Below, one piece after another: positions 19,538 to 39,753 of a stretch of 64,000 nt of DNA. The DNA is from Adlercreutzia faecimuris. GTDB taxonomy: Bacteria > Actinomycetota > Coriobacteriia > Coriobacteriales > Eggerthellaceae. The notes under the pieces are model-generated. The model worked only from the letters and a program-made list of their open reading frames with translations, was not told where the DNA came from and did not search any database. How positions within the stretch are numbered: the first letter of the stretch is position 1; each line of letters starts with the position of its first letter. The DNA is taken from assembly GCF_022669055.1 (NCBI RefSeq), contig NZ_JAJMLW010000003.1:1-64000 (forward strand). Reading direction: 5' to 3'. Position numbers and translations under genes: made by a program.

Positions 19538-19553
19538 TGTTTCACGTGAAACA
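19538..19553. other. parS: Chromosomal parS site 1
   Basis: The 16-bp palindrome TGTTTCACGTGAAACA matches the classical bacterial parS exactly. It is the ParB/Spo0J loading site used in chromosome segregation. It lies 40 bases upstream of the HMA gene. Confidence 0.92.
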
Positions 19554-19612: not shown

Positions 19613-19628
19613 TGTTTCACGTGAAACA
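19613..19628. other. parS: Chromosomal parS site 2
   Basis: A second perfect TGTTTCACGTGAAACA lies 75 bases from the first, centre to centre. A parS pair implies that this is near the replication origin, since parS sites cluster there. Confidence 0.92.
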
Positions 19629-21438: not shown

Positions 21439-23031
21439 GTGAGCCAGTCCGCCCTTCCCGATCAGCGTGTCATCGTCGTCGACTTCGGCGCCCAGTACGG
21501 GCAGCTCATCGCGCGGCGCGTACGCGATTTGCACGTGTACTCCGAGATCGTCCCCTGCGACATCACCGCTGACGAGGTGCGGGCGATGGCCCCGGCGGCC
21601 ATCATCTTCTCCGGCGGCCCGGCGAGCGTCTACGCCGATGACGCGCCCTCCATCGACCCGGAGATCCTGGAGCTGGGCATCCCCGTGCTCGGGTTCTGCT
21701 ACGGCCAGCAGATCATGGCCGTGACGCTTGGCGGCGAGGTGGGGCACACCGAGAAGGGGGAGTACGGCCCGGCGCCGCTCACCCGCTGCGGCGAGAGCGC
21801 GCTGTTCGCGGACACACCCGGTGAGCAGACGGTGTGGATGAGCCATCGTGACGCGGTGAGCCGCGTGCCCGAGGGCTTCACGGTGACGTCAAGCACCGAC
21901 GTGTGCCCCGTGGCGTCGATGGAGTGCGCCGAGCGGCGCCTGTACGCGACGCAGTTCCATCCCGAGGTGCGCCACACCGCGTTCGGCAACGAGCTGCTGG
22001 CGAACTTCCTCTTCGGCATCTGCGGGCTTGTGCCCGACTGGACCATGGACTCGATCATCGAGGACTCGGTGGCGGCCATCCGCGAGAAGGTGGGGGAGGA
22101 TCGCGTCATCCTGGGGCTTTCCGGCGGCGTGGACTCGTCGGTGGTGGCGGCTCTGGGCGCGCGAGCCATCGGACGGCAGCTGGTGTGCGTGTTCGTGGAT
22201 CACGGGCTGCTGCGCAAGGGCGAGCCCGAGGAGGTGGAGGCCGTCTTCACCGAGCAGTTCGACGTGGACTTCATCCGCGTGGACGCGCGCGAGCGCTACC
22301 TGGAGCTGCTCGCCGGCGTGAGCGACCCGGAGGAGAAGCGCCGCATCATCGGCACGCAGTTCTGGAAGGAGTTCTTCGCCGTGGCGCAGCAGCTCGACGG
22401 CGTGAAGTACCTGGCCCAGGGCACCATCTACCCCGACATCATCGAGAGCGGCGCGCGCAAGACGGGCGGAAAGGCGTCCACCATCAAGAGCCACCACAAC
22501 CTGATCCCGTTCCCCGAGGGGGTGTCCTTCGAGCTCATCGAGCCGCTCGACCACTTCTTCAAGGACGAGGTGCGGGCGCTGGGCACCGCGCTCGGGCTGC
22601 CGGACCACATCGTGCACCGCCAGCCGTTCCCCGGTCCCGGCCTGGCCATCCGCATCATCGGCGACGTGGACGCCGAGAAGCTGGAGGTGCTGAAGAGCGC
22701 CGACGCCATCGTCCGCGAGGAGCTGGACGCCTACAACGAGCGCCTGTTCCAGGAGACCGGCGTGCGCGACAGCGAGCGCAGCGTGTGGCAGTACTTCGCG
22801 GTGCTCCCCGACATCAGGAGCGTCGGCGTGATGGGCGACGAGCGCACCTACGCCCGCCCGATCATCCTGCGCGCCGTGGAGAGCCAGGACGCCATGACCG
22901 CCGACTGGGCGAGGCTGCCCTACGAGCTGATAGCCCGCGTGAGCAGCCGCGTGGTGGCCGAGGTCCCGGGGGTGAACCGCGTGGTCTACGACGTGACGAG
23001 CAAGCCGCCTGCTACGGTGGAATGGGAGTGA
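21439..23031 (+). CDS. guaA: GMP synthase (glutamine-hydrolysing)
   Basis: A 530-residue enzyme converting XMP to GMP. The N-terminal class I glutaminase domain has the catalytic Cys87 in GFCYGQQIM with FHPEVRHT further along. The ATP pyrophosphatase has LSGGVDSSVVAAL. The C-terminal dimerisation domain has QPFPGPGLAIRIIGD and ends in the family's usual SKPPATVEWE. The GTG start follows GAGGAG. The 3' end is the known integration site for many mobile elements; here a foreign element begins right after the stop codon and the gene remains intact. Confidence 0.97.
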   Translation: MSQSALPDQRVIVVDFGAQYGQLIARRVRDLHVYSEIVPCDITADEVRAMAPAAIIFSGGPASVYADDAPSIDPEILELGIPVLGFCYGQQIMAVTLGGEVGHTEKGEYGPAPLTRCGESALFADTPGEQTVWMSHRDAVSRVPEGFTVTSSTDVCPVASMECAERRLYATQFHPEVRHTAFGNELLANFLFGICGLVPDWTMDSIIEDSVAAIREKVGEDRVILGLSGGVDSSVVAALGARAIGRQLVCVFVDHGLLRKGEPEEVEAVFTEQFDVDFIRVDARERYLELLAGVSDPEEKRRIIGTQFWKEFFAVAQQLDGVKYLAQGTIYPDIIESGARKTGGKASTIKSHHNLIPFPEGVSFELIEPLDHFFKDEVRALGTALGLPDHIVHRQPFPGPGLAIRIIGDVDAEKLEVLKSADAIVREELDAYNERLFQETGVRDSERSVWQYFAVLPDIRSVGVMGDERTYARPIILRAVESQDAMTADWARLPYELIARVSSRVVAEVPGVNRVVYDVTSKPPATVEWE

Positions 23032-23672: not shown

Positions 23673-24089
23673 TCAGACCTGGAGGCCTGCGCGCCAGGCT
23701 CTGTAGTCCTCCTCCGTCATGTCGCCACGCGTGAGCTCACCGCGCGCATTCACCCAAGCCTTGATGGCTGCATCGAGCTTCTGTGCATTGTCGGCCTTGG
23801 GATCGATCATGAGCGATCCATCCTCCTGGGGAACTAGTCCGAACTCGTCTTCCAGCTGGAACAAGACTCCAAGCGCGTCCTTTGCGCTTGTTATCTCGTG
23901 TCTGACAAGGGAGTCGGGCGTTACTCCTAGAGCCTTCGATATCTTCTCCAGCTGGCCTCTGTCGGGAGTCCTGTTGCCCAGCTCGTAGTTTCTGATGGCT
24001 GGTTCGGAGAAGCCTGCGGCCTCGCCCAATCCGGCCTGTGTCATATGTTTGCGCTTCCTGTAGAAGCGAATCAGTTCTCCAGTGTTCAT
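23673..24089 (-). CDS. XRE-family repressor of the element
   Basis: A 138-residue protein. Residues 1-60 form a lambda-like HTH (LIRFYRKRKHMTQAGLGEAA, then SEPAIRNYELGNRTP). The C-terminal 75 residues contain a short acidic domain (RGDMTEEDYRAWR) and no peptidase motif, so it would not self-cleave like LexA. It has RBS AAGGAG before the ATG. It is divergent from the excisionase/recombinase operon, as in many elements where the repressor faces the genes it silences. The palindromes ACAGTTCA/TGAACTGT in the shared region are its likely operators. Confidence 0.85.
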   Translation of the reverse strand: MNTGELIRFYRKRKHMTQAGLGEAAGFSEPAIRNYELGNRTPDRGQLEKISKALGVTPDSLVRHEITSAKDALGVLFQLEDEFGLVPQEDGSLMIDPKADNAQKLDAAIKAWVNARGELTRGDMTEEDYRAWRAGLQV

Positions 24090-24119
24090 AAGGCTCCTTA
24101 GCGCGTTGTCCTACGAATT

Positions 24120-24141
24120 CTAAAACAGTTCACAAATGAAC
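24120..24141. promoter_or_regulatory. Operator O1, 22-bp block shared with parA
   Basis: CTAAAACAGTTCA, then CAAA, then TGAAC: an inverted repeat with five-base core arms (GTTCA/TGAAC). The same 22 bases occur in the parA promoter at 36060-36081. It lies 30 bases upstream of the repressor start. Confidence 0.8.
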
Positions 24142-24149
24142 GCAACGTA

Positions 24150-24178
24150 TTGACCGTACGAAACTGAACTGTTAGTAT
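24150..24178 (+). promoter_or_regulatory. Promoter of the excisionase-recombinase operon
   Basis: TTGACC (24150-24155) and TAGTAT (24173-24178), 17 bases apart. A half operator TGAACTGTT (24165-24173) lies in the spacer and touches the -10 box, so a bound repressor would block polymerase. Confidence 0.75.
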
Positions 24179-24190
24179 GCCCTGAATGAA

Positions 24191-24210
24191 ACAGTTCAAT
24201 AGTGAACTGT
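24191..24210. promoter_or_regulatory. Operator O3
   Basis: ACAGTTCA (24191-24198) and TGAACTGT (24203-24210) form a perfect 8-bp inverted repeat with spacer ATAG. It sits right after the -10 box and before the ribosome site of the excisionase-like gene. Confidence 0.85.
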
Positions 24211-24225
24211 CCGAAAGGAGCATAC

Positions 24226-24423
24226 ATGGTAGATAACAAGCCAGAGATGATCAGAGCCGATGAGGTGGCGGAGAGGCTGGGAATCTCACGAACCTCCGCC
24301 TACTCGGTCATCAAGGAACTGAACCGTGAGCTTGCCGAGAAAGGCTACATGACGGTCACGGGAAAGGTGAGCAAGGACTACTTCGAGCAGCGCTATTTCG
24401 GCTGGAAGGACGGTATCCGATGA
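24226..24423 (+). CDS. Excisionase-like HTH protein
   Basis: A 65-residue DNA-binding protein with a MerR/excisionase-like fold: ADEVAERLGISRTSAYSVIKELN. RBS GAAAGGAG is seven bases before the ATG. The stop overlaps the ATG of the first recombinase (ATGA). Excisionases often sit just before the integrase. The HTH is in the family used as recombination directionality factors, but an activator or a recombinase subunit role is also possible. Confidence 0.8.
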   Translation: MVDNKPEMIRADEVAERLGISRTSAYSVIKELNRELAEKGYMTVTGKVSKDYFEQRYFGWKDGIR

Positions 24424-25493
24424 CAGCGGTGAGAGAGGAGAACGGGAGCTGGACGAGCCAGTTCTGGTACAAGGATATCTACGGGAAGCGCAAGCACAAA
24501 TGCAAGCGCGGGTTTGAGACGAAGGCCGATGCCGAGGCGTTCGAGCTTGACTACACGAACAGGGCGCGTGGCTCCATGGATATGAGGCTTTCCGACTTCG
24601 TAGACGTCTACGCCGAAGATGTGAAACCGACCATCCGAGAGTATACCTGGGCTACCCGTGAGTACATCATCAACGACAAGATCATCCCAAAGTTCGGCAC
24701 CAAGCGCATGAGGGACATAACCGTGCTCGACGTCATCGACTGGCAGAACGAGATCCTCGCCTTCAGGAAGGAAAACGGCGAGCCCTACTCGGAGACGTAT
24801 GTGCGAACGGTCAACAGCGCATTCGCCTCGATCATGAACCACGCCGAGCGGTACTACGGGCTCCGACCCAACCCGGTCAAGAAAGCGCCGCGCATCGGCT
24901 CCAAGAACGCTCGCGGCATAAACATCTGGTCCAAGGAGCAGTACCTGAGGTTCTCCGAGTCGCAAATCGACGACAAGCTGCTCTACACCGCCTTCGAGGT
25001 CCTCTATTGGACGGGTGTGCGAACAGGAGAGCTCCTCGCGCTCACTCCCGCCGACATCGACTTCGTGGGATCGACACTGCATGTCAGGCATTCCTACAGG
25101 CGCCTCAAGCGAAAAGACCTCATCACCGATCCTAAGACGGAGAAGTCGATTCGCCAGATAGCCCTTCCGGAGTTTTTGCGCGACGAGCTTCGGGACTTCG
25201 TCTACAACGTGTCCCCGACGGCTCACGACGAGCGCATATTCGCTGACCTCAGCTCGGCGAAGCTGAAGGCTGCCATTGCTAAGGGAAGCGCCATGACGGG
25301 CGTTCCCGTCATCAGGGTTCACGATCTTCGGCACAGTCACGTTTCCCTTCTGATAGAGATGGGGTTCTCGGCCGTGGCGATCGGCGACAGGACGGGACAC
25401 GAGTCTGCAGAAATCACGTTCCGCTATGGCCACATGTTCCCTGGCTCACAGGAGAAGATGGCCGATGCCTTGCAATCGTATAGGGAGGATTGA
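24420..25493 (+). CDS. Tyrosine recombinase 1 (integrase)
   Basis: A 357-residue phage-type integrase. The N-terminal arm-binding region carries WYKDIYGKRKHKCKRGFETK. The core-binding domain is at about residues 60-150. The catalytic residues are R in TGVRTGELL, H-x2-R in HDLRHSHVSLL, H in GHESAEITFRYGH and the Tyr in FRYGHMF. It overlaps the excisionase-like gene by four bases and is followed by an RHH gene and a second, related recombinase. The best guess for its reaction is integration into guaA; which of the two acts there is unknown. Confidence 0.93.
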   Translation: MTAVREENGSWTSQFWYKDIYGKRKHKCKRGFETKADAEAFELDYTNRARGSMDMRLSDFVDVYAEDVKPTIREYTWATREYIINDKIIPKFGTKRMRDITVLDVIDWQNEILAFRKENGEPYSETYVRTVNSAFASIMNHAERYYGLRPNPVKKAPRIGSKNARGINIWSKEQYLRFSESQIDDKLLYTAFEVLYWTGVRTGELLALTPADIDFVGSTLHVRHSYRRLKRKDLITDPKTEKSIRQIALPEFLRDELRDFVYNVSPTAHDERIFADLSSAKLKAAIAKGSAMTGVPVIRVHDLRHSHVSLLIEMGFSAVAIGDRTGHESAEITFRYGHMFPGSQEKMADALQSYRED

Positions 25494-25494
25494 T

Positions 25495-25863
25495 ATGACT
25501 TGCAAAAACGAGGACCGGGCGCGCCCCATGACCATCGCGTTCAGAGTCACCAAGGAGATGAACGAACGGCTAAACCTAATGGTCGCAATGAGCGGGTTGA
25601 CCAAGCAAGACTACATAATGTCCAAGCTATGCGACATGGAGATCACCGTTGTGCCCTCGCCCAGGGCGCTGAAAGCGCTACGTGACGAGATGCGCGAGGT
25701 CTGCAAGCAGCTCAACCGGCTCCGAAAGGGCGACAGCCCCAGCGAGCATCTGCTGGAGACATGTGACCTCCTAGCAGATGTCATGCTCGGGCTGCGAGGA
25801 GACGAGACCAGATCTGAGATCGAGGACGAGGACGAGATTCTCAAGAATATGGGGAGGTGTTAG
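25495..25863 (+). CDS. Ribbon-helix-helix protein between the recombinases
   Basis: A 122-residue protein starting with a ribbon-helix-helix fold (MTIAFRVTKEMNERLNLMVA) and continuing with a helical part that resembles MobC-like accessory proteins (LRDEMREVCKQLNRL). RBS GGGAGGA. It begins one base after the stop of recombinase 1, and recombinase 2 begins just after it, so the three are translated together. It could be a regulator or a recombination accessory; the MobC-like relaxosome role is less likely here because the relaxase lies 13 kb away next to its own MobC-like protein. Confidence 0.7.
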   Translation: MTCKNEDRARPMTIAFRVTKEMNERLNLMVAMSGLTKQDYIMSKLCDMEITVVPSPRALKALRDEMREVCKQLNRLRKGDSPSEHLLETCDLLADVMLGLRGDETRSEIEDEDEILKNMGRC

Positions 25864-25866: not shown

Positions 25867-26952
25867 ATGCCCGCATACAAGTTGGATAATGGAAAATGGT
25901 GCGCATCATTCTATTACCGCCTGCCCGATGGCTCGCTCAAACAAAAGTACAAGCGCAGCTTCGAGACGGAGGACGATGCGCTCCGTTATGAGAACGAGTT
26001 CAGGGCGCGCGCCGAGAACCCGTGCAGCTTCCCATTCTCGGCCTTCGTGGACGTTTACCTGGCAGACATGAAGCCGCGCATTCGCTGGACGACCTACGAT
26101 ACCAAAAGGCTGTCCATCGGGAAATGGATCAAGCCCTACTTCGGGGAGAAGCTGATGGGAGACATAAAGCCCATTGATATCCTGCATTGGCAGGGATGGC
26201 TAGACGAGCAGAGACTCAAGAACGGCAATCCCTTGTCACCGACCTATGTCAGGAAACTCAACAGCGATCTGGCATCTCTGTTTAACCATGCCGAACGGAA
26301 CTACGGACTCAAGCCGAACCCGATGAAGAAGATCTCCAAGACAGGCAAAACGAGATCGGGCGAGATGCAGATATGGAGCAAGGAAGAGTTCAATCGGTTC
26401 CAGGACGCGATCTGCGACAAGGCTAAAAGCTACTATGCTTTCGATCTCCTGTTCTGGACGGGCATACGCGAAGGCGAGCTTCTAGCTCTCACGCCCACCG
26501 ACTTCGATTTTGAAAACCGCATCCTCACCATAGACAAAAGCCTCGCAAGAAAGGACGGTGGAGCGATTGTAGGCCCACCGAAGACGAAGAAGTCATACAG
26601 GAAAATCGCATTATCCGAGTTCTTATGCGAAGAGATCCGGGAGTACATCGAATTGATCCTGAAGATAGGGCCAGACGAGAGGATATTCGAGGGGATGACG
26701 AAATCGTTCCTCTGCAATGAGATGGATCGCGGCTGCAGGATCTCAGGTGTGAAGCGCATCAGGGTGCACGATCTGAGACATAGTCACGTTTCCATGCTCA
26801 TCCATATGGGCTTCAGCGTTGTTGCGATAGCCGAGCGCATGGGACACGAGACAACGGACATCACGTTCCGTTATGCTCACCTGCTCCCCAACTCTCAAGG
26901 AGTGATGGCCAACGCGCTTAACGAAGCCAAGGGAACTAAGAAAGTCGGATGA
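25867..26952 (+). CDS. Tyrosine recombinase 2 (paralogue of recombinase 1)
   Basis: A 361-residue integrase that is a clear paralogue of recombinase 1: FNHAERNYGLKPNPMKK against MNHAERYYGLRPNPVKK, and HDLRHSHVSMLIHMGFSVVA against HDLRHSHVSLLIEMGFSAVA. All catalytic residues are present: R in TGIREGELL, H-x2-R, H in GHETTDITFRYAH and the Tyr. The ATG follows GGAGGTG. Neither copy is broken. Two functional tyrosine recombinases side by side may act as a pair, as in some ICEs, or reflect divergence of a recent duplicate. Confidence 0.93.
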   Translation: MPAYKLDNGKWCASFYYRLPDGSLKQKYKRSFETEDDALRYENEFRARAENPCSFPFSAFVDVYLADMKPRIRWTTYDTKRLSIGKWIKPYFGEKLMGDIKPIDILHWQGWLDEQRLKNGNPLSPTYVRKLNSDLASLFNHAERNYGLKPNPMKKISKTGKTRSGEMQIWSKEEFNRFQDAICDKAKSYYAFDLLFWTGIREGELLALTPTDFDFENRILTIDKSLARKDGGAIVGPPKTKKSYRKIALSEFLCEEIREYIELILKIGPDERIFEGMTKSFLCNEMDRGCRISGVKRIRVHDLRHSHVSMLIHMGFSVVAIAERMGHETTDITFRYAHLLPNSQGVMANALNEAKGTKKVG

Positions 26953-27029: not shown

Positions 27030-27407
27030 GTGATGATGACTGGAGAAAACTCGATAACCTTTCCCGATGATGTGCGCGCTGCCTTCCTAGCGTTTCAGGA
27101 TGACTATCTTGCAGACGTGCTCAGGCTCTGGGATTGCGATCTCAGGGATTGGCATGATCCTGCAGTGATGATCTTCAGGTTCGAAAGTGACGATATCTTA
27201 CTCTGGCGAGAAATGAATGCACTGAAATGCAAAAAAGGCACTGTTGATGCCACGACCTCAAGAAGCTCTATTCCTGAAAAAGTAGAGGCAAGCATCGACA
27301 TAGATGCTTGCCTCTGTTGGCTGCCAGATGATTCTTACAGCGATTTCATTGGTTTCACCACAATTACCCATGATCTTCTACAGGCCATGAGCAGACTGTC
27401 GTTTTAG
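27030..27407 (+). CDS. Hypothetical acidic protein
   Basis: A 125-residue acidic protein, no family recognised. It contains WDCDLRDWHDPAVMIFRFE and a Trp/Asp-rich centre. No membrane segment or signal. AGGTG sits just before the ATG. Its last codon overlaps the stop of the convergent DUF262 gene. It could be a small partner of the adjacent restriction system, for instance an inhibitor, but nothing in the sequence proves it. Confidence 0.55.
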   Translation: MMMTGENSITFPDDVRAAFLAFQDDYLADVLRLWDCDLRDWHDPAVMIFRFESDDILLWREMNALKCKKGTVDATTSRSSIPEKVEASIDIDACLCWLPDDSYSDFIGFTTITHDLLQAMSRLSF

Positions 27408-29173
27408 AGTTTCTCGTAAGCTTCCTTTACAAGTTGTGACATCAAACCACGTCTCTTCTGCAAGAATGTTTCGTAATCCATCGTCTCGAAGTCAACGGGT
27501 AGCGCATGTTCTTCACATGCCTTCAAGTACGCGTCTTCCCCTAGATCCTTCCTGTATTTGCTCACATATTCTGATGGCGGATCATCGGAGATGTAGATGT
27601 TGTTCTGGTAGTCGACATAGGTGAAGTTTGCTCGATTGCTTCGGTCTGCTATGTGCCCAACCTCTTTTAGGTAGTTGTCCGGGAATAGATGGTGCTTGTC
27701 CACGGCCTTCTTCGTTCCGGAAGAATAAGGACCCACCAACTGAGATAATGGCACGGTGCTAAACAGGGCCTTAGCGCCAAGAACAATCTGAGAAGCTACG
27801 AAGCCGTACCAAGTGGGACCTGTTGCCTCGTTCGCATCGAGATCGGCTGGTAGTGTGATTCTGAAGTAATCGTCGGTAAGGAGCGCCTCGATGCTTCTAT
27901 CGAAATAGGCCTCGAACTCGTCCGAGTTGCTCAGCTTTGAGATATCGTTCAGCTGCTGCTCGAAATCGGATTCGAAAGAGCCCACGTAATAGGCAGTGAG
28001 AGCAGAAGCGAAATACCATCTGCGGACAAGTCTCTTGATCCTTAAGGGTTCCATCTTGAACTCGTACTTGCCGATAATGTAGAAAGCGTAATTGAAGAAG
28101 AGCGCATTTGACGAGGAGATCTGATCCGCGTTTATGTAGCCAGCTTCGCTGAGCGTGTTGATGAAGGCGTGCCAGTTGTTGAGGTCAAGTACGTGATCAA
28201 GGGCTTTTCCGAACTTTTCGAAGTTCTCCTCGCGCGTTTGAGCGCTCGTCTCTTTGGTCTTCAGATCGCGGCCTCTGAGTATCTGGTAGGCGTAGCGCAG
28301 GCGACCCCTCTTGAAGCCGACGCCGACGGTTGTTCTGATCAAGTGCGTGGGCGACACCTTTATCAATGGATTGTATGATGTGTTCTGCGCAGGTATATGG
28401 CTCTCCTCGCAGAAGAGTTCTATCCTCTCTCGCATCTCGGGCTCGTACACTGAAAGCAGCGTCATGATGAAGTCGTCCTGTTTCAACGCCTGTCCCTGGG
28501 AGTTAACCCTGACGAAGATGTCAGAGACCATCTCCTCATCGGCGTTGGCTGTGATGTTCAGTGTTGGCAGGTAGTACCGCTCAAGCCCAAGCAGCGCATT
28601 GAGCCCGTTCTCGATCCTGTCTTCCTCCTCGTCTGTCAGCTCAGCTAAGCCCTTCTTCAGGCTCGAATCGTTCAAGTCCTTGATGAACTCTCTCCTGAAC
28701 TTGCTCAACTTGTTCAGACGGTTCGCCTCAAAGACCTCTGATACGGCCGATATGTACCTGGGATCCCTGTCTGTCGATGCGTCGGCGTTCTTGAACTGCC
28801 TTTCGATGGGATCGTAGGCCACCCTGATGATGCGCTCGCTAAAGCTCTTGTCCTTGACTGGTATTCCGTAGAAGGAGGCGAGAAGTGCGGTCAGCCTCTG
28901 CTGCCCATCGATGACGAGCTCCTTCGGGGAGCTGTAAGACTTCTCATTGGCTCCAATGGCCTCCGTTTTACCGGCCTCTTCTACTGGTGACTCCCAAAGC
29001 ATGATGTATCCGATAGGGTATCCACGAAGCATCGAATCGAGCAGATCTCTAACCTTGTCGTTCTTCCAGACGAACGGACGCTGGAGGTCAGGCAGGCCGA
29101 TCTTTCCGCTTCTCACATCTTTTAAGATATTGCCCACTTCGAGCGTTACAGGTGTGTATATAGAGTTTCCCAT
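27404..29173 (-). CDS. DUF262/HNH (GmrSD-like) protein
   Basis: A 589-residue protein with an N-terminal DUF262 domain. DLQRPFVWKNDKVRDLLDS and IDGQQRLTALLA (residues 88-99) carry the DGQQR motif of that ParB-like nucleotidase fold. The C-terminal part has KKAVDKHHLFPDNYLK, an HNH-like, DUF1524-type nuclease motif. Together these resemble GmrS-GmrD, which cut modified DNA, fused in one chain. It is the last gene of a leftward operon (nine bases behind the type III restriction subunit), so it is part of the same defence unit. It might target modified phage DNA that the type III enzyme cannot cut. Confidence 0.83.
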   Translation of the reverse strand: MGNSIYTPVTLEVGNILKDVRSGKIGLPDLQRPFVWKNDKVRDLLDSMLRGYPIGYIMLWESPVEEAGKTEAIGANEKSYSSPKELVIDGQQRLTALLASFYGIPVKDKSFSERIIRVAYDPIERQFKNADASTDRDPRYISAVSEVFEANRLNKLSKFRREFIKDLNDSSLKKGLAELTDEEEDRIENGLNALLGLERYYLPTLNITANADEEMVSDIFVRVNSQGQALKQDDFIMTLLSVYEPEMRERIELFCEESHIPAQNTSYNPLIKVSPTHLIRTTVGVGFKRGRLRYAYQILRGRDLKTKETSAQTREENFEKFGKALDHVLDLNNWHAFINTLSEAGYINADQISSSNALFFNYAFYIIGKYEFKMEPLRIKRLVRRWYFASALTAYYVGSFESDFEQQLNDISKLSNSDEFEAYFDRSIEALLTDDYFRITLPADLDANEATGPTWYGFVASQIVLGAKALFSTVPLSQLVGPYSSGTKKAVDKHHLFPDNYLKEVGHIADRSNRANFTYVDYQNNIYISDDPPSEYVSKYRKDLGEDAYLKACEEHALPVDFETMDYETFLQKRRGLMSQLVKEAYEKL

Positions 29174-29182
29174 GCTGTGTTC

Positions 29183-31744
29183 CTAAATCTTATTCGTGAC
29201 AGGCTGAGCGAGTGCCAGCAAATCGTTCCAGGAATCGGACTTTGCGATATCGTCCTCATAGGCGATCAGGTATCCCCAGTGACTGTTGGAGAACACATCG
29301 TCGATGGCGAGCTTCCTCACGAGCTGTTCTGCTGCCTTCCGCTTCGCCTGCACCTTCTCATCATCTCGGCCTCGCGCGTCTTTGCCCTCGATGATCCAAT
29401 ACGTTCCCTCATCGTCTAAGGCGACGAAATCTGGGAAGTAGCGGTCTTTGGGCGTGTAGTAGATGTAAGCACCCATGAAAGGATGCAGCCTGTTCCACCA
29501 GACTATGCGAGGGGATGTGTTGAGCAAGCGTGCGAGCATGTACTCGCCAGTGTACGAATCAAACGATTCCTCCGCATAGAGTGATTTGAACCAGCCGGAA
29601 TAGACGCGACCTCTCACGAATTCATCCCGGGTATCGATCTGGTCGTAGACCTTCTCGCCAATCGGGAGAGAGTAGCCGGTGCATTCGATAGCCTTGGCTT
29701 TGATGACGGGCACTTCCTGCGTTGATCTCAGTGTCTCGACTATGAAATCCTTGATGGTCTGCCTCAGCTGCTCTTGGGCAGAAGACAACGATTTGACTGT
29801 CCATGTGTCTAAGTTCGATGCGCTCATGAACCTCGGGATAAGGTATTGCGCGATATATCGCGCCGTCCCCTCGGTTTTCGGAACCATCGACATGTTCAGC
29901 ACCAGCTTGACAAGGGCGTCCCGTGCGTCCTCGTCGCTCACATGAACGGAGTCTACCTCGGCGCTTTCGGTGTCCACTGCGCGTAGGGACTTGCCCAGTA
30001 CGGCAACTATCTCCTTGCGGTAGAGCACATCACCGGTTGAGGTGACCCTTCGTGCAGCGGCAGCGAGTGTGTCATCGGAGATACCGGAGAGGTCTATCTC
30101 GGGCTGCTTCGCCTCTATGATCGTCACCGGGAAGTCGTATGAGGTTCCAAGGAATGCCGGATTGGGATCAATCGTGATGTAAGTCAGATCAGGCTCATCT
30201 GTGAGGCTAGGATCGTTGACCGACTGGACTAGGACGGTCGGCTTGTTTGACGCAGCGTCGGTATTTGTATCGTCACCAAATGAGGTTCGCGTGTAAGGAG
30301 CTGGTGCATTAGAAGCCTCCTGATAGCCTTCAGTCGCAGAATCTGATCCGAAGGCAGCACCTGTGGTTTCGTCGCCTTGGCCGATATGCGCAATCTCATA
30401 CTCGAAGCGAGACCGATCATTTGAGCTAACCGCTTCTTCGAGACCGAACTGCCTGAGCACGTTTTCCTGTTCGAGAAGCTCCTTGAAGGATTGGTGCGAG
30501 ATGATGTCCAGCTGATCGACCTGCCTGATGCCGGTGTATTTCCCGAAAGGCAGGCGGAGCCCGCGCCCCATGGTCTGCTGTGTCAAGACCTCTGAGGCCA
30601 TGGCTCTCAGCGTCACGATCACGGCGATATTCTTGACATCCCACCCTTCCTTAAGCTTATTCACGCTGACGACCGCCTTGACGGGCGAGTTGGGATCGTC
30701 CAGATCTTCGAGCATCCTTTGCGTGAGGTCGTCGTCATGCTCGGAGTCCACCTGCAGAACGGCAAGCTCGCGTCCGAAGAACTCAGGTCCCCGCAACAGA
30801 TTTGTTATCTCGGTCGCATGGGACACGTCCGAGCAGACCACGAAAAGCACGGCGTTCAACTCGGGCAGCTCGTTCTGCGCTATATAGGCATCGTATGCCG
30901 ACTGCTTGATGTCCCGAAGCTGGAGCGCGTCCCTCAGCTGCTGCTCCTCGGATGCCTCGTCTTCGCCGTACCCGCCTTTTCGGAAAGCGAGGACGGGCGT
31001 TTTCACGTACTCGTCTGCGATGGCGCGGTAGAGAGGGTACTTGTAGATGACGTGGTCGCCTTCGAGGATGGAGGCGGTCAGCCCGATGGTCGCAGCAGGT
31101 TCGAGCTCGCGGATCGCCGAATGGAATGCCGCCGCGCTGGTCGAATAGAGATGGGACTCGTCCGCGATGAGCACGAGATCGTCCTGGCTCTTCAGGTAGT
31201 CGAAAAGCACGCCAGCGTTTTCGTCGAAGCGGCGCGGCTTCCGCCTCATGGCGTCCTGGCTTCCGTCGCTTGTCCCGCCTTCCTCCTTCTTAGGGGCGAT
31301 GAGCTGCTGGATGTTGAAGATGAATGCGAGCAGTGGAGTCTCTCTTCCAAACGAGAGCTGTGCTGCTCCGTTCTGCCTCGCGATCCAAGGCGAGTAGTCT
31401 TGCGGCGTGACCACATCCGGAGGGATCTGTGCGCCCTCGATGTAGCGGCCGCTTCCGGGGGTGAAGTTCTTGACCGTCTTCGCCTGAACAGTCTTACCGG
31501 GGGTGACGATCACGACATTGCCCACGCCCTGCCTGCGAAGGTACTCCATGAATGCGGCCATAAGATAGGTCTTTCCGACGCCGGTGGCAAGGTTCATGAC
31601 TTGGATGACCTCTGGATCGTAATCGCCATCGAGTGTGAATATGAGCTTGCGAAGTGCTTCCTTGTTCGGAGTGCGCAAGTCGAACTCCGAGCTGATGGAC
31701 TCGATAAGATCTGAATCGAAGTTGATGTTGAGTCGTTTTGCCAT
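29183..31744 (-). CDS. Type III restriction endonuclease, Res subunit
   Basis: An 853-residue helicase-nuclease. The helicase superfamily 2 part has the Walker A NLATGVGKT (51-59) and the DEAD-box-like LIADESHLYS. GLRLPFGKYTGIRQVDQLDI lies in the helicase C part. Near the C-terminus, FPDFVALDDEG, then WIIEGKDARG, gives the D...ExK of a PD-(D/E)XK nuclease. The length is a little under that of typical Res subunits (about 900-1000). The stop of the Mod gene overlaps its start by one base, so the pair is translationally coupled. Confidence 0.92.
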   Translation of the reverse strand: MAKRLNINFDSDLIESISSEFDLRTPNKEALRKLIFTLDGDYDPEVIQVMNLATGVGKTYLMAAFMEYLRRQGVGNVVIVTPGKTVQAKTVKNFTPGSGRYIEGAQIPPDVVTPQDYSPWIARQNGAAQLSFGRETPLLAFIFNIQQLIAPKKEEGGTSDGSQDAMRRKPRRFDENAGVLFDYLKSQDDLVLIADESHLYSTSAAAFHSAIRELEPAATIGLTASILEGDHVIYKYPLYRAIADEYVKTPVLAFRKGGYGEDEASEEQQLRDALQLRDIKQSAYDAYIAQNELPELNAVLFVVCSDVSHATEITNLLRGPEFFGRELAVLQVDSEHDDDLTQRMLEDLDDPNSPVKAVVSVNKLKEGWDVKNIAVIVTLRAMASEVLTQQTMGRGLRLPFGKYTGIRQVDQLDIISHQSFKELLEQENVLRQFGLEEAVSSNDRSRFEYEIAHIGQGDETTGAAFGSDSATEGYQEASNAPAPYTRTSFGDDTNTDAASNKPTVLVQSVNDPSLTDEPDLTYITIDPNPAFLGTSYDFPVTIIEAKQPEIDLSGISDDTLAAAARRVTSTGDVLYRKEIVAVLGKSLRAVDTESAEVDSVHVSDEDARDALVKLVLNMSMVPKTEGTARYIAQYLIPRFMSASNLDTWTVKSLSSAQEQLRQTIKDFIVETLRSTQEVPVIKAKAIECTGYSLPIGEKVYDQIDTRDEFVRGRVYSGWFKSLYAEESFDSYTGEYMLARLLNTSPRIVWWNRLHPFMGAYIYYTPKDRYFPDFVALDDEGTYWIIEGKDARGRDDEKVQAKRKAAEQLVRKLAIDDVFSNSHWGYLIAYEDDIAKSDSWNDLLALAQPVTNKI

Positions 31745-33744
31745 TATCTTGCGCCTCCCTTCGTATAGCGGAAGACGTCGTCCGGTACGGCAATCACCCG
31801 CGACCCCTTGCTGATCTTTCTCAGATGCTCGCGTGCTCCATCCATGACCATGGTTCCGGCTATGACGATCTTTTCTCCTTCTCCAAGCTTTCCGACGATC
31901 GAGTCAACCGTGTCGGCATCGATAATGCCTTCCACGACTTTAAGGTACGTATCGCCGCGATGGGCGTCGAATGGGCTCGTGCAGCTATCGGGGATCGTCC
32001 TGAACCCTAGATTTGCGGCAATCGATTTCACCAGCGTATCGCCCGTTGCGGCTTCCGTAAGCATCACTCTGCCAAGAGAGTCGTCATAGTCAAAGCATTC
32101 CTTCGAGAGATGGGCGACCTGGAAACCGCCTCCGCCGCGCCAATTGACGAGCATCTTTGACTTCTTCGTCTTTGCGAGCTGCTTCAACTTCTTGACATCG
32201 CTGCTTGTTTTCAGTGCATCATCATTCGATATCAGCTTGTTCAGCCAAGATGTGAACTGGTTGGCATCCTCCGGAGTCATCTTGTCAGGTAGTCCTTCGG
32301 GACTGTCGTCAAAGCGCTCGCCTTCAGAGCGGCTTACGCCGCCCTCGTCGGTTCCGTACACGACTTTCTCCAATCGTGGCAAAGTGAAGTCTCGGAACGT
32401 CGAATCGAGAAGCTCGCAGGTGACCCAGCGCCTTCCCATCTTCTGGGCGACGGCCGCAGTTGTGCCAGATCCCGCAAAGCAGTCGAGCACGATGTCGCCT
32501 GGCTTGGAGCCGATGTGGATTATCCTCTTCAGGAGCGCCTCGGGCTTGGGCGTTGAGAAAGGGGTCTTGCCAGGGAACAAGGCCTTGATCTCCGACTTGG
32601 ACGTTCTGTTGTGCCCTACCTCGGCATTCGGCCACAACGTGCGTGGGACGTTCAGGCGATTAGGAATATATGACTTCTTCCCGAATCGTCCTTCACCTCC
32701 TGAACGCAGGATAAAGACTGGCCAATTCCCTCCCTCGTATATTTCTTCAGCTTGCTCCTTTGCTTCATTTAGAGGTACGGCAAGTACGAGAGCTGGGACA
32801 TCACGTCTAACTTCTTCGGGAGAGATGCCACATAATTCAGCTCTCGCATCAGTATCGTCAAGTATCTCTAGTTTGTATGGTGCCCAACCATTCACGATTT
32901 CTAAAATCTTGCTTTGATCAAAAGCCCAATGCCTTGCGCGAGCAGGGTATATCAACTCACCAGTTATCGGCTGTTGGATTGCGTATACCATTCCTTGATG
33001 GAATCGCGCATCGTTTGCGGTTGGATCTCCGTCCCACCATGGGCCTTTTGGATCATTGTCGGGATTGGAGAAACGCGCATTGTCTGCGACCGTTCTTGGC
33101 AGACCGTTCACTTTGAACGCCTCTGACTTTGCATAGACCACGATGATGTCATGGTCTGACGAAAAGTATTTAGCATCATTTCTAGGCGAATCCGCCTTTT
33201 GCCAGATGACCTCGGTCACGAAATTCCCAGCTCCGAAAATCTCGTCCAGAAGCACGCGCATCCTGTGGTCTTCTTTGTCGTCGAGATGCACCCAGATCGA
33301 TCCGTCGTCTGACAGGAGGCGCTTCAAATGGAGCAGCCTGTCCCTCATCATCGTAAGCCAGATGGAGTGCTCCAGGTTATCCTCATAGGAATCGAAAGTC
33401 TGGGCCGTATTGAAAGGCGGGTCGATATAGACCAGCTTCACATTGCCCACGTATTTTTCGGCAAGCTCGGGCACACGCGTCAGCGCCTCAAGAACGTCGC
33501 CAGATTCGCCATGGACGAGCAGATTGTCAGTTTGGGGTTCAAGATCGGCATATTCGGAATACTGGTATTCATCTGATTTAGGCGATTGTTCGCCCTGAAT
33601 GTATTCATCCATTACGAGCGTGTGCGTCTCGCAATACCTGGGATCCGAAGGTTCAACCCACCGATAGCCATACTTGCCTGTTTCGGTCGGTATGAGTGCT
33701 TTGTCCTTGTTATACCAAGTTAGCTGTAATCGCTGCTGGGTCAT
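31744..33744 (-). CDS. Type III DNA methyltransferase, Mod subunit
   Basis: A 666-residue N6-adenine methyltransferase. Motif IV is DPPFNT at 108-113, and the AdoMet motif I ([15 protein letters not shown]) comes later, at about 430: the order typical of beta-class Mod proteins. The target-recognition region lies between. The long C-terminal tail ([13 protein letters not shown] onward) would bind Res. It is the second gene of the WYL-Mod-Res-DUF262 operon. The recognised site cannot be told from the sequence. Confidence 0.93.
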
Positions 33745-33755
33745 TTCGCCTCATT

Positions 33756-34745
33756 CTACTTTCTTGCCTCGGCGGCCAATCTATCCAAATAATCTGCGTA
33801 TTCATCCCTCAAGCTCTTCGGCCCGTGTATCCTCACAGTGCCTCCGAGTCCCGCAATCCAGCCGAAGAACGGCTCGGACTTGCGGATCTTCACGATGGCC
33901 TTCGCGGTCTCGTCGTCGTGCTCGTACATCTCGGCGGCGTCGCCGAAACGGTCCATGATGATCTCCACCTTGTCCCCGTCGACGAGGAGCGTCGCTGTGA
34001 CTGGCTCGCCGCCGAAGCGGCCGAAGCTCTCGTGTCCGTCGCCGTCGAATGTATGATGCGTTATCTCCTCGTTGCGGGTTGCCGCGTTTTGGGACACCCG
34101 CAGCTTCTCCATGCGGTCGATCCTGAACTCGGTCATGCACTCATGGTCGTCGTTCCACGCGGTCAGGTAGTAGTAGCCGTCCCAGTAGGTGATGCCCACG
34201 GGCGTCACCTCGTGCGGTTTGCCGTCATGGGTTGCCTTGCGCTCTCCCTTGAGGTTGAACTTGTAGTACATGAAGGAGACCTTCTTGTGCTGTCGCATCG
34301 CATCGTGAAGGATATCGATGCACTCGAACACTCCGTCCTTCTTGGACGTTATGCGCCCAGGCACGTGTATCCGTCGATCCAGAAGAGCCCGTTCGTAATC
34401 GCTCGCGAGGAGCTTCAGGTTCGTAGTGAGAGCGTTTGACTGCCTGCGGGTGAGGAACTTGCACGATTCCACGGCGTCTACCAGGAGCATAAGCTCGGAC
34501 AGCGTGAAGTCCCGCCTGACGACGGCGTACTGGACGGGGTTCCTCTGGTAGGTGCGGATGTCGAGGCCGAATTCCTTGAGCGTCTCAAGGTCGCGGTAGA
34601 CGCCCTTGCGCTCCGCCGGTATCTCGTAGGCGTGCAGCCGGTCGATGAGCTGCGTCATGGACAGCCCGTGGCTCTCGTCGGTCTCCTCTTCGAGGATGCG
34701 CTTCAGGTACAGCAGCTTCAGCTTCGACTTGCTGTTGTTCGCCAT
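33756..34745 (-). CDS. WYL-domain transcriptional regulator
   Basis: A 329-residue regulator: a DeoR-like HTH at the N-terminus (LSMTQLIDRLHAYEIPAERKGVYRDLETLK) and a WYL domain (VTPVGITYWDGYYYLTAWND; the WYL core reads YYYL). WYL proteins often control defence operons and may sense nucleic acid or nucleotide signals. The ATG at 34745 has GCAGGGA upstream; an earlier ATG adds nine residues without a site. It leads the operon, 11 bases before Mod, and probably regulates it. Confidence 0.87.
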   Translation of the reverse strand: MANNSKSKLKLLYLKRILEEETDESHGLSMTQLIDRLHAYEIPAERKGVYRDLETLKEFGLDIRTYQRNPVQYAVVRRDFTLSELMLLVDAVESCKFLTRRQSNALTTNLKLLASDYERALLDRRIHVPGRITSKKDGVFECIDILHDAMRQHKKVSFMYYKFNLKGERKATHDGKPHEVTPVGITYWDGYYYLTAWNDDHECMTEFRIDRMEKLRVSQNAATRNEEITHHTFDGDGHESFGRFGGEPVTATLLVDGDKVEIIMDRFGDAAEMYEHDDETAKAIVKIRKSEPFFGWIAGLGGTVRIHGPKSLRDEYADYLDRLAAEARK

Positions 34746-35189
34746 GATCCCTGCCCTTCTCTCGCGCCCCATCTGTATTACATACGTTGATTACTCATTC
34801 TAAGCGATGAAGCCGAATCACCGCTTTGGGTGTCCCTTTTTCGCATAACTTCTCCTCCCGGGCGGAGCATCTGCCCACGCGAACGTACGAATTCCTCCAC
34901 CCACGTGCTCTCCGAATCTCGCGCATGCCCCTTCGCCTTCCTTGAACGTCGCACCCTCGCACAGCGCCGCTCGTTGCCGCGCAAGGGCCGCGATGCTTTT
35001 CCGATTTCTTTTCAGGGAGGTCTTCGCTTCGCATGTCCCAGAAAACAAATGGGAAAACCAGCACGGCGAAGATGCTTCCTCGATACGCCGTTTCGCTTCC
35101 TCCCTTGCACGGCCGCGACGCTATGCGCCATGCGCCTCACAAGGCAGGCCAAAGGGGCCGAGCCGAAGACGAATTGGAGGTCGATTCGA
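34746..35189. other. Gene-free gap upstream of the defence operon
   Basis: I see no supported gene in these 444 bases. It holds the divergent control region of the WYL operon (about 34770-34800) and the lead to the YraN-like gene. TGTATTACAT occurs at about 34776. The rest is GC-mixed sequence without clear hairpins. Confidence 0.5.
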
Positions 35190-35625: not shown

Positions 35626-35666
35626 AGCCAGGGGGCATCCGGCAACGATTGAAAGGACGCACGAAA

Positions 35667-36044
35667 ATGGGACTCGACATGTACCTCACCCGCAGGGCAA
35701 AGGGCGAAAACGCCGAACACGAGCTTCTGGCCTACTGGCGCAAGGCGAACCACATCCACGGCTGGTTCGAGCGCAACACTTCCGACGGATTCATCGAGAA
35801 CTGCGAGTACTATCCGGTCTGCAGGCAGGATCTGGTCTGCCTCATGGACGACTGCAGGCTCGTCGAAGACGACCGCTTCCTGGCACCCGAGCTCCTCCCG
35901 GTGCAAGAAGGTTTCTTCTTCGGGGCATTCGGCTACGAAGACGACTACTACACGCAGTGCATAGACGAGACGGTCAGCATGCTGGAGCGCGTGCTTAAGG
36001 AGACCGGCGAAGATGACGAGCTCTTCTACCACGCCTGGTGGTAG
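35667..36044 (+). CDS. Hypothetical small acidic protein
   Basis: A 125-residue soluble acidic protein beginning MGLDMYLTRR; family not recognised. Trp and Tyr are frequent and two Cys pairs are spaced along the middle. RBS GAAAGGA nine bases from the ATG. It lies just before the parA operator and is probably ended at the palindrome. It may be element housekeeping. Confidence 0.6.
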   Translation: MGLDMYLTRRAKGENAEHELLAYWRKANHIHGWFERNTSDGFIENCEYYPVCRQDLVCLMDDCRLVEDDRFLAPELLPVQEGFFFGAFGYEDDYYTQCIDETVSMLERVLKETGEDDELFYHAWW

Positions 36045-36054: not shown

Positions 36055-36097
36055 GTACCCTAAAACAGTTCACAAATGAACTGTTTTAGGGTACAAT
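36055..36097 (+). promoter_or_regulatory. 40-bp palindrome over the parA promoter
   Basis: A perfect inverted repeat with 18-bp arms (36055-36072 and 36077-36094) and centre CAAA. Within it, TTCACA (36069-36074) and TACAAT (36092-36097) are 17 bases apart, a usable promoter. The 22-bp block 36060-36081 is identical to the operator beside the element's repressor. A dimer repressor bound here would hide the promoter. A partition (parS-like) site is another reading. Confidence 0.8.
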
Positions 36098-36175: not shown

Positions 36176-36943
36176 ATGCGCACCATAGCCATCTCCAACT
36201 ACAAGGGAGGTGTGGGCAAGACGACGAGCGCCGTGAACCTCGCAAGCATCTACGCCGATGCGGGCAGACGGGTGCTCCTGATCGACCTCGACCCCCAGGC
36301 CTCCGCGACCGACTACTACGGACTCTACGACAGGGCGAAGGCGGAGGGCAGAAGCTCCATTGAGCTGCTGTACGGACAGGCTTCCGTGGCCGACCTCGCC
36401 TTCGAGACCGAAACGGAGAACCTATCCGTGATCCCCTCCACCATCGAGCTCGTCGACCAGAACGAGCTTTTGCTCCGCGAGCAGAGGCTCAAGTTCGCGC
36501 TCGACGATGCGGCCGACACCTACGACATCGCCATCATCGACTGCTCGCCTGTGCTCAAGCGCCTGGCATTCAACGCCTATCTCGCAGCTGCGGACGGTGG
36601 CATCGTCGTCATCCCGGTGAAGCTCGACTCAACTGTCATGCGGGGCACGGCGCTCACGGTAGAGGCCACCAAATCCATCGCCGAGGCGCTCCGCATGCCC
36701 TGCCCCAAGTACCGGATCCTGCGCACCTGCGTCCCCGGGCGCATGACCAAGGCCGAGAGGACGGGAGCAGAGGTGCTCGACCGCTTCTTCCCCGATACGC
36801 AGTTTCAAAGCGTGATCCATGCCTCGGCCAAGGTATGCGAGGGAAGCTGGCAGTGGACGCCAGTGGCGTCATTCGAGCCCGGCAGCAGACCTGCGCGCGA
36901 CTACGCGGCTCTGGCTGAGGAGGTTCTCAATGAGCTCGGCTAG
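36176..36943 (+). CDS. parA: ParA partition ATPase
   Basis: A 255-residue ParA/Soj ATPase. The deviant Walker A is KGGVGKTT (10-17), with LIDLDPQAS as the next motif. ParA drives segregation of the circular element or its copies. RBS GGGAGAAAGGA. It overlaps parB by 14 bases. Transcribed from the palindrome-covered promoter. Confidence 0.93.
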   Translation: MRTIAISNYKGGVGKTTSAVNLASIYADAGRRVLLIDLDPQASATDYYGLYDRAKAEGRSSIELLYGQASVADLAFETETENLSVIPSTIELVDQNELLLREQRLKFALDDAADTYDIAIIDCSPVLKRLAFNAYLAAADGGIVVIPVKLDSTVMRGTALTVEATKSIAEALRMPCPKYRILRTCVPGRMTKAERTGAEVLDRFFPDTQFQSVIHASAKVCEGSWQWTPVASFEPGSRPARDYAALAEEVLNELG

Positions 36944-37838
36944 CGACGTCGCAAAGGCGTTCTCGATCTCGGGGCTCCTCGACGAGAGGTCCAAGACGCG
37001 CGAGCGCTTCCCCGTCCTTGAGATCGATGTCGGAGAAATCTCCGCGCATCCCGCGAACGTCGCCTACTCGATGGACGCCTCCGCCATAAAACAGCTCGCG
37101 AGCTCCATCAAGCGCGACGGCCTCACCGACCTCCCGCTCGTGAGGAGGCTTGCCGACGGCGGCTACCAGATGATCTCGGGGCACCGCCGCCTTGAGGCGT
37201 TCCGCCTCCTCGCAAAAGACGACGACGCGTTCTCACGCATTCCCTGCCGGATCGTCGAGGGGATCACGGACGCCCAGGCGATAACGCTGCTCCACACGGC
37301 GAACTACTTCGTGCGCTCGCTCACGGTGACAGAGAGGGCATTCGCTACGGAGGCCCTCGGCATCGAGGCGGAGCGGCTCCGCGCCGAGGACCCGTCGCTT
37401 AAGGGGAGGCGCACCGAGGACATCAAGGCCGAGATGATCGAGAAGCAGACCGGCAAGGCCGTCTCCGGAAGGACGATCCTGCGCGACGAGAAGCTTGCCA
37501 AGACCATCCAGAGCGACCTCTCCAGGAACTGGGCAATCGAGGCCAACGAGGGGCGGCTCTCCGCTTCGAGCGTCGATATCCTCAAAGGCCTTCCGAGGGA
37601 GAAGCAGACGCGACTTTACGTGAGCCGCCCAGCAGGCCTCTCCAAGAAGGAGACGACCGAGTACCTCAAGCGCAAGCTCGAACTTGAGAGCCCGTGCGAC
37701 AAGAGGCTCGTCCGCATCCTCGACGACCTCCGCTCGTACATGTCCTCGATGGAGGGAAAGCCCTCGAAGGCCGATTGCGAGGCCGTCGCCGAGATACGGC
37801 GGATAAGCGCCCGAATCTCGAAGATGTGCACTAAGTGA
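36930..37838 (+). CDS. parB: ParB-like partition protein
   Basis: A 302-residue ParB. The CTPase-like N domain has YQMISGHRRLEAFRLLAK (the GHRR motif) after the L-E-I-D-V start. The middle HTH region is FVRSLTVTERAFATEA and following; a C-terminal helical region with KKETTEYLKRKLELE may dimerise. GAGGAGG precedes the ATG, inside parA. It forms the parAB pair of the element. Its own centromere has not been identified; the palindrome before parA is a candidate. Confidence 0.88.
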   Translation: MSSASDVAKAFSISGLLDERSKTRERFPVLEIDVGEISAHPANVAYSMDASAIKQLASSIKRDGLTDLPLVRRLADGGYQMISGHRRLEAFRLLAKDDDAFSRIPCRIVEGITDAQAITLLHTANYFVRSLTVTERAFATEALGIEAERLRAEDPSLKGRRTEDIKAEMIEKQTGKAVSGRTILRDEKLAKTIQSDLSRNWAIEANEGRLSASSVDILKGLPREKQTRLYVSRPAGLSKKETTEYLKRKLELESPCDKRLVRILDDLRSYMSSMEGKPSKADCEAVAEIRRISARISKMCTK

Positions 37839-38100: not shown

Positions 38101-38520
38101 ATGAACCCCATGAACAAGACCAGGACCTTGAGCTTCCGCCTCGCAGAGGACGACTACCAGAAGCTCGTAGAGCGCTGCCGTGAGTCGGAGCTCACGCAGT
38201 CGAAGTACCTGCGCTACCTTATCCGCATCCCCATGCTCGCCGAGGCAGCCAAGGGAGAGATCCCCGACGGCGTCGTCATCGACAGGAAGACGATGCGCCA
38301 GATGTCGCGGGAGCTCACGCGCTGGGGCTACCACTACAACCAGGCCGTGCATGCCATGAACTCGATCAACTACTACATCGTCCACGGCAAGGCCACAACC
38401 GAGCTCATCGCGCCCAAGGCCGAGACCATCGAGACGGAGCTCGCGGCGGTGAACGAGAACGCAGAGCGGATCGTCTACGAGCTGGCGCGCATCCAGTGCG
38501 CGACCATCATGGAGGCGTGA
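38101..38520 (+). CDS. MobC-like relaxosome accessory protein
   Basis: A 139-residue protein. It begins with a ribbon-helix-helix (TLSFRLAEDDYQKLVERC) and contains the MobC region SRELTRWGYHYNQAVHAMNSI, the motif that helps the relaxase bind oriT. AGGAGG eight bases before the ATG. Adjacent to the relaxase (three bases) and to the oriT candidate. Confidence 0.88.
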   Translation: MNPMNKTRTLSFRLAEDDYQKLVERCRESELTQSKYLRYLIRIPMLAEAAKGEIPDGVVIDRKTMRQMSRELTRWGYHYNQAVHAMNSINYYIVHGKATTELIAPKAETIETELAAVNENAERIVYELARIQCATIMEA

Positions 38521-38523: not shown

Positions 38524-39753
38524 ATGCCGATCCTGAAGCCGATATCGGGACACGGTTCGGTGGCGGGCATCAGGCGCTACCTGGAGAAGAAGAACCGCGC
38601 CATCGGCCGCGACGTCCTGAACCTCCCGCTCGACGGAGAGTGGGTGTGCGAAGACCGCGGCCAGAGCGCGATCTTCGTCGACTGGGACGCGGAGATGGAC
38701 GCCACGAGGGAGGCCTACGGCACCAACTCCGAGTGGCGCGGGCTCAAGGCGCGCACCTTCAAGCACTTCGTCATCTCGCCCGACCCGGAGGACCGCATCG
38801 ACCTCGCGTCCCTGCGCGAGCTCTCGCAGGCATGGGTAGGTGTGTACTTCCCGGATCACGAGGTAGCGATCGTCTACCACGAGGACAACGAGGGGCGCAT
38901 CCCCCACGCGCACGTTGTCGTGAACAACGTGAACCTGAAGACCGGCTACCGCATGCAGACCGAGCATCCCGAGGATCTGAACCGGGCGCTCCAGGACATG
39001 GCGCGCGACCGGGGGCTCACGGGATTCTCGAACGTGATGCCCGAGAGGTCGCAGAAGAGCGCAGAGCCCAAAACGTCCCGTACGCGCCAGGGCATCTACT
39101 TCGGGCGCGCAGAGAAGGAGATCATGCGGTCCGGCAACTACTCCTGGGTGGGCGACATCAGGGCGCGCGTGGCGCTCGCGAAGAACACCTCCCGTAGCGA
39201 GGCCGACTTCATGGAAGCCTTGCGCCGCCTCGGCATCGACGTGGCCGACAACTCGTCGAAGGCACGGCGCGACGACTGGATCTTCTCTTTCGCCGACGAG
39301 TCGACGAAGAAGGTGTCCGGCGAGAGGCTCGGCTTCACTTTCGGCAAACAGATGCTGAGGAGTCGGTTCGAGAGGCAGTCGGCCTACCACCCCGAGCGCA
39401 GGACCGAGGGCGAGATACGCCGCCGCGCGGTGAGCGCCGTGGAGCTGAACGACCTTCAGGACCTCTCAAGCCTCTCTGCCGTCCTTGAGACGTGCGCTAA
39501 GTTCGATATCCGATACCTGGAGGACTTCGATGCGAGGGCGGCCACCCTCGCCCGCAGGGATCAGCTGGGCAGCGAGGGCTTCAGGCGTCTGGCCGAGGCG
39601 CGCATCTACGTAGCCGAGAACAACCTCATGACGCACAGGAGCAGAAGCGAATCCGCCCCGGCATCGACGAGACGGCGCGGAAACCAGCACCAGCACGCGC
39701 CAAGGACGCAGGAGGCCGAACAGAGGCGCAACCGAGAGAGGAGCGACAGATGA
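38524..39753 (+). CDS. Relaxase (MOB_P-like)
   Basis: A 409-residue relaxase that nicks and covalently joins the transferred strand. The N-terminal 200 residues hold the domain: IRRYLEKKN with Tyr19 as the likely catalytic Tyr; KHFVISPDPEDR; and the metal-binding RIPHAHVVVNN (His128, His130). These fit the Relaxase (PF03432-like) fold. The C-terminal half is helical and Arg-rich at the end. Operon with the MobC-like protein; its stop overlaps the next gene by four bases. Confidence 0.9.
   Translation: MPILKPISGHGSVAGIRRYLEKKNRAIGRDVLNLPLDGEWVCEDRGQSAIFVDWDAEMDATREAYGTNSEWRGLKARTFKHFVISPDPEDRIDLASLRELSQAWVGVYFPDHEVAIVYHEDNEGRIPHAHVVVNNVNLKTGYRMQTEHPEDLNRALQDMARDRGLTGFSNVMPERSQKSAEPKTSRTRQGIYFGRAEKEIMRSGNYSWVGDIRARVALAKNTSRSEADFMEALRRLGIDVADNSSKARRDDWIFSFADESTKKVSGERLGFTFGKQMLRSRFERQSAYHPERRTEGEIRRRAVSAVELNDLQDLSSLSAVLETCAKFDIRYLEDFDARAATLARRDQLGSEGFRRLAEARIYVAENNLMTHRSRSESAPASTRRRGNQHQHAPRTQEAEQRRNRERSDR

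Follow-up and report, generated by a model that had tools for sequence, protein, structure and literature searches.

A predicted operator shared by the integration region and the parAB promoter of an ICE in Adlercreutzia faecimuris

We propose that the XRE repressor of an ICE in Adlercreutzia faecimuris binds operators shared by two distant places and in this way shuts both the excision and the partition genes, a reading that the sequence evidence makes very probable. Copies of the operator lie in the window (the whole stretch of DNA that was analysed, 64,000 nucleotides) at four positions, one at parA and three (O1-O3) in the interval that separates the XRE repressor gene from the xis-int operon. 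A wider question is why integrated elements have partition genes and how a second chromosomal partition system is avoided, and this ICE family suggests a simple answer, namely that the repressor that locks integration would also lock the partition operon.

The parA site is an inverted repeat, GTACCCTAAAACAGTTCA-caaa-TGAACTGTTTTAGGGTAC, and the longest short-spacer palindrome in the window. The earlier note had described it as a perfect 40-bp palindrome; its 18-bp arms are indeed perfect, but they are separated by a 4-bp spacer and the repeat is thus not gapless. The arms were also said to enclose both promoter boxes, which is true of the -35 box, whereas the -10 box lies only half inside. The 22-bp block at 36060-36081 is, as had been claimed, identical to 24120-24141 in the divergent XRE/xis region, and chance is a poor explanation for it: with up to 3 mismatches allowed the block has two matches in the window, and no comparable match arose in 100 dinucleotide shuffles. 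The conserved unit is a 20-bp dyad operator, ACAGTTCA-N4-TGAACTGT, which is perfect at O_par and O3 and partial or degenerate at O1 and O2; four such dyad sites were found in the window against 0.08 expected. The sites and promoters are as follows (basis in brackets).

36055..36094, unstranded: 40-bp inverted repeat (18-bp arms, 4-bp spacer) at the parA promoter (palindrome search and sequence)
36065..36084, unstranded: O_par, predicted XRE operator ACAGTTCA-CAAA-TGAACTGT, perfect dyad (dyad search, scan, co-variation)
36069..36097, plus strand: parA promoter, -35 TTCACA (36069-36074), 17 nt, -10 TACAAT (36092-36097) (promoter search, 1 found against 0.1 expected)
24140-24145 and 24117-24122, minus strand: presumed xre promoter, -35 TTGCGT and -10 TAGAAT (read by eye)
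24125..24144, unstranded: O1, predicted operator in the presumed xre promoter (dyad search, relatives)
24150..24178, plus strand: xis promoter TTGACC-17-TAGTAT (promoter search)
24153..24172, unstranded: O2, predicted operator between -35 and -10 of the xis promoter (dyad search, promoter search, relatives)
24191..24210, unstranded: O3, predicted operator in the xis leader, perfect dyad (dyad search, relatives)

The distances of O1, O2 and O3 from the start of xre are 45, 73 and 111 nt, and the operator at parA covers the -35 box and the spacer of the promoter that it overlaps. A position-specific scan of 95 kb of the contig gave the four operators scores of 33.6, 32.6, 27.4 and 21.1, which are not independent of the matrix, itself partly derived from these sites; the next best score was 9.5, at random level (best site per sequence 6.8 to 18.8 in 20 random sequences). 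The search for further copies thus ended, within these 95 kb, with the four already in hand, and the whole genome adds a single match at up to two mismatches (it has two), on a different contig.

The genes served by these sites are the following.

23673..24089, minus strand: XRE repressor, 138 aa, HTH_3, recognition helix FSEPAIRNYE (PF01381, E 6e-12)
24226..24423, plus strand: small HTH protein of 65 aa, probable excisionase, xis (weak HTH_11/AlpA-like matches; position before int)
24420..25493, plus strand: tyrosine integrase 1 (PF00589)
25426..25863, plus strand: NikA-like protein, ORF as listed, true start may be further in (PF21983)
25867..26952, plus strand: tyrosine integrase 2 (PF00589)
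36176..36943, plus strand: parA, Walker-type ATPase (PF13614, E 3e-38)
36930..37838, plus strand: parB, start at the ATG within the frame 36819-37838 (PF02195)
38101..38520, plus strand: NikA-like mobilisation protein, probably co-transcribed with parAB (PF21983; promoter search)
38524..39753, plus strand: relaxase, MobA/VirD2-like (PF03432, E 4e-13)

The XRE gene is thus divergent from xis, the two integrase genes and the first NikA-like gene. Its neighbour is guaA, and an ImmA-like protease gene was not noticed beside it. The closest solved structure to its product is the P22 c2 repressor (E 2e-6); in the domain profile search the protein matched HTH families only, with no C-terminal peptidase S24 or cleavage domain. 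On the partition side, parA and parB are followed by a 262-bp gap, the second NikA-like gene and the relaxase gene, and no second promoter-like site was found between parA and that NikA-like gene. Secretion genes (a PF02534 coupling protein, a TraG/VirB4-like ATPase, an NlpC/P60 protein and a TrbL match under its cut-off) belong to a T4SS set that runs in the opposite direction from about 61 kb. With two tyrosine integrases, a relaxase and type IV secretion genes, the element is by its gene content an ICE. The cargo between int2 and parA (27404-34772) includes a GmrSD-type (DUF262) protein, a type III restriction-modification-like pair and a WYL regulator.

On this basis a lambda-like switch can be envisaged. 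The repressor, through its P22 c2-like HTH domain and presumably as a dimer, would bind the 20-bp dyads; at O1-O3, between the divergent promoters, it would autoregulate xre and repress xis-int1-nikA-int2, while at the fourth operator, the most symmetric of the set, it would shut parA-parB by covering the -35 region. The downstream NikA-like and relaxase genes would probably be shut together with parA-parB. In the integrated state, excision and partition would both be off; once a presumed inducing signal lifted repression, the excision, partition and DNA-processing genes would come on together, at the time when a plasmid-like circle could be lost. A reasonable benefit would be that no second partition system is active in the chromosome and that partition is supplied to the circle. 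The notion that one repressor governs integration/excision as well as partition therefore gains support from the co-varying operators and from a code between XRE helix and operator core, both set out below. Its extension to mobilisation fares less well: the T4SS operon was without an operator in the scan to 95 kb, and at most the relaxase end would come under this control, through its presumed co-transcription with parA.

Conservation was followed in relatives of both proteins. ParA relatives of about 70-98% identity occupy some 30 loci, nearly all in Coriobacteriia, and the best-ranked plasmid records held only distant ParA relatives, of about 35% identity. Searches with XRE and ParA covered 138 family genomes and the 31 genomes behind the loci, two partly overlapping sets, and gave 36 XRE/parA pairs, nearly all on a single contig and with conserved layout. 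Most parA promoters have a palindrome whose sequence varies between elements, and the XRE-xis region of the same element mostly has that same sequence, usually in three copies at similar positions. The match of 22 identical bases does not survive at full length: in the nearest relatives it is down to 16 and 15 bp, with the operator still present at both places. In more distant elements both places have changed jointly to another sequence, and across elements the core is GTTC, GCAC, GAAC or GTAC. The expectation that the match would persist in related elements is thus borne out, in the form of a shared operator that is either kept or changed at both places. Across 15 representatives the dyad similarity of the XRE and parA regions summed to 194 in the true pairs and to 158 +/- 6 after permutation (0 of 200,000 permutations reached the true value), the pairs being partly related by descent, a kinship that clustering at 70% identity reduces and does not remove. 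This dyad test replaced a longest-common-substring test on account of the self-similarity that GTAC-class sites show from one element to another. In four of the 15 (G017, G061:C21, G044 and G137:C14) no match exists between the palindrome or promoter at parA and the XRE region close by, and the XRE proteins there are of another subtype, without a three-operator region. The promoter geometry is equally regular: in 8 of 11 representative parA promoters the distance from the operator centre down to the -10 box is 16.5-17.5 bp, and a ninth, G000b, for which the automatic -10 choice failed, has the same distance when TATACT is chosen by eye.

Two cases are instructive. In G080, ParA and ParB are 97% and 95% identical to those of the window and XRE only 58%; the GTTC operator is nonetheless present at both places. 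In Adlercreutzia hattorii (NZ_AP022829.1; L174, L035), the xre-xis-int-int2 part lies at guaA at 2.436 Mb and the parA-relaxase part at 0.667 Mb, a split probably due to a chromosomal inversion that broke the element within the cargo; the two places nevertheless agree but for a single changed spacer base at the parA site.

The next question is which protein would read these sites. Partition systems often autoregulate just upstream of parA. The palindrome, which is directly upstream of parA, could accordingly be a parS-like site or autoregulatory operator of the element's own ParB (or ParA), with the copy near xre allowing ParB to act there as well. Mantel tests on whole distances lend this some weight, because operator distance correlates with whole-ParB distance (r 0.30) to much the same degree as with the XRE helix (r 0.29), and the two proteins are not separated. 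Individual pairs, in contrast, disagree with it. In G146a and G089 the ParB HTH segments are identical (76% ParB identity) and the operators only 50% alike; the window and G029 have HTH segments that are 93% identical and operators that are 33% alike; and G146a and G053b, in which ParB is 57% identical, have identical XRE helices and operators that are 92% identical. Moreover, the three-operator XRE region is found in two genomes that lack a ParA of the window's kind, G101 (a single contig, 99% complete) and G025.

XRE itself provides evidence as well. When XRE proteins were clustered at <70% identity, 14 clusters yielded three or more readings of a single operator core, and three residues, which fall in the segment aligned with the recognition helix of the P22 c2 repressor, predict the XRE-region core in all 14 (mutual information 1.84 bits, 0 of 50,000 permutations). 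The code reads EPN-GTTC, ESN-GCAC, DSN-GTTC, DAN-GAAC and EGH-GTAC. The same triad predicts the core of the parA site in 10 of 10 elements, a result reached by 10 of 200,000 permutations; the triad was chosen after the alignment had been viewed, which weakens the formal p-values of both tests and leaves the absence of exceptions intact. Two elements split over contigs (L059, L036) obey the code as well. Since the triad gives the core, since three-operator regions exist without parA and since pairs with identical ParB HTH segments have different operators, XRE rather than ParB most likely binds both places, and the predicted operator specificity would follow the XRE recognition helix and not ParB. 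The possibility raised earlier, that ParB is the binder and the site a parS, thereby becomes quite improbable.

XRE binding would not by itself account for the whole palindrome: a 20-bp operator would require less DNA, and the flanks extend to the -10 box. Both could be in use, XRE on the 20-bp core and the flanks out to 36055 and 36094 serving a second protein or a mirror-image promoter. In several elements the symmetry at parA does reach well past 20 bp (arms 13-19), which it does not at O1-O3, and several flanks terminate in the -10 box. The flank sequences vary between elements, however, such that a shared second motif is not visible, and symmetric flanks could also arise by template-switch repair of imperfect palindromes; we consider this additional use unlikely, though a good deal less so than binding by ParB. 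At parA the operator shows higher symmetry than most of the xre-side sites, which suggests that repression by XRE would be tightest there.

A quite different view is that the palindrome works as an RNA hairpin that terminates transcription or insulates parA from the upstream gene (35649-36044), the 22-bp match being a relic of recombination. The palindrome begins 11 bp past the upstream stop codon, and a hairpin with 18-bp arms could fold in read-through RNA. This view would give no reason why the palindrome should vary together with the far-off xre region and with residues of XRE, and we assign it hardly any probability. The terminator reading was rejected, as the palindrome has no T-run and no terminator-like site was found.

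The proposed XRE switch has recognisable relatives. Dyad operators with an uncontacted AT-rich 4-bp centre, three of them between divergent promoters, are features of P22 c2 and lambda CI, and the window resembles these in its dyads, in its three operators between divergent promoters and in P22 c2 being the closest solved structure; it differs in that the host element is an ICE, the repressor is short and without a peptidase domain, and a fourth operator lies on partition. In SXT/R391 ICEs, a single promoter that depends on SetCD drives srpRM and int as one transcript (PMC4542580, PMC4489591). These ICEs (SetR, SetCD, srpMRC) are alike in placing excision and active partition under one regulatory switch, and SetR likewise belongs to the HTH_3 repressors and has multiple operators between divergent promoters. 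Their coupling is nevertheless indirect, through an activator acting on one transcript, and their partition is actin-type (ParM-like), whereas here the repressor would act directly, through a predicted operator on the separate promoter of a Walker-type parAB operon 12 kb away. Unlike SetR and LexA-like repressors cleaved in the SOS response, moreover, the window's XRE has no detected peptidase S24 domain.

In ICEBs1, the XRE-type repressor ImmR, divergent from xis as in the window, keeps the ICE integrated, and the parts of the description available to us contain no counterpart of the parA operator (PMC6540685). In cluster A mycobacteriophages (L5, Bxb1) one repressor acts at dispersed sites and the motif diverges with the repressor across the family (PMC6550527), a joint divergence of the kind seen here; the phages differ in having up to about 30 mostly non-promoter sites, and parABS, which replaces integration in some members, is not described as a repressor target. 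ParA-type genes with roles around excision or transfer are present in other ICEs (PAPI-1 soj, the expression of which rises on excision, and ICEclc parA-shi), and the portions of these reports that we consulted do not describe a shared operator of the integration repressor at the par promoter (PMC4489591, PMC6812849). Literature searches on ICEs of Coriobacteriia, Eggerthella and Collinsella yielded nothing on the family studied here. Coupling of partition to excision is thus already known, in SXT/R391 via SetCD; what appears new, as far as the literature consulted shows, is the predicted direct control of Walker-type parAB by the integration repressor via a co-varying operator.

The same genome carries a second ICE of the family (G000:C2:401500-419000; L173), with the xre-xis-int-nikA-int layout, at the 3' end of a divergent guaA paralogue that is 51% identical over the shared part. 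As this ICE has GCAC operators at both places, two operator systems of different predicted specificity coexist in one genome. We incline, by a narrow margin, to a broader reading in which at least four operator specificities in this Coriobacteriia ICE family would be set by the three helix residues (five combinations), the most symmetric operator of each repressor would sit on the partition operon and release it only with excision, and differing elements would be controlled independently in one cell. With many operator/helix pairs, repressor specificity becomes readable from sequence, and the pairs would predict which gut actinobacterial ICEs can coexist and which can repress each other.

The presumed left end of the window's element is at guaA (21439-23031). 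The family adjoins guaA in 11 of 22 fetched loci tested, and the guaA 3' end is therefore its likely integration site. Repeats TTTTGTACTCA occur near both presumed ends (contig 23357; 72610, 72726; inverted 72831), and a 23-bp inverted copy AACAGTATCGTTTTGTACTCACC is seen at 23347/72831 of contig C3. These repeats point to arm sites for the integrase and to a right end at about 72.9 kb, outside the window; a core att duplication and a long att duplication of the guaA end were searched for and not found.

Some further observations were made along the way. Near-identical GTAC-class elements are found in records named Arcanobacterium, Varibaculum and Bifidobacterium (L062, L064, L065), which reflects either wide actinobacterial transfer or contamination. 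A chromosomal-type parS, TGTTTCACGTGAAACA, occurs in the window at 19538-19553 and 19613-19628; exact copies number 107 in the 2.8-Mb genome; a congener has 126 and G020, from a different genus, 108, whereas other members of the family have 3-5 and the reversed control gives none. This multiplication of parS is unusual, and a dense cluster lies at G000:C1:277-286 kb. Finally, outside the window, a frame at L213:16308-18146 with repeated FNPRRPARGSD / STHAAPRGAAT looks like a CRISPR array read as protein.
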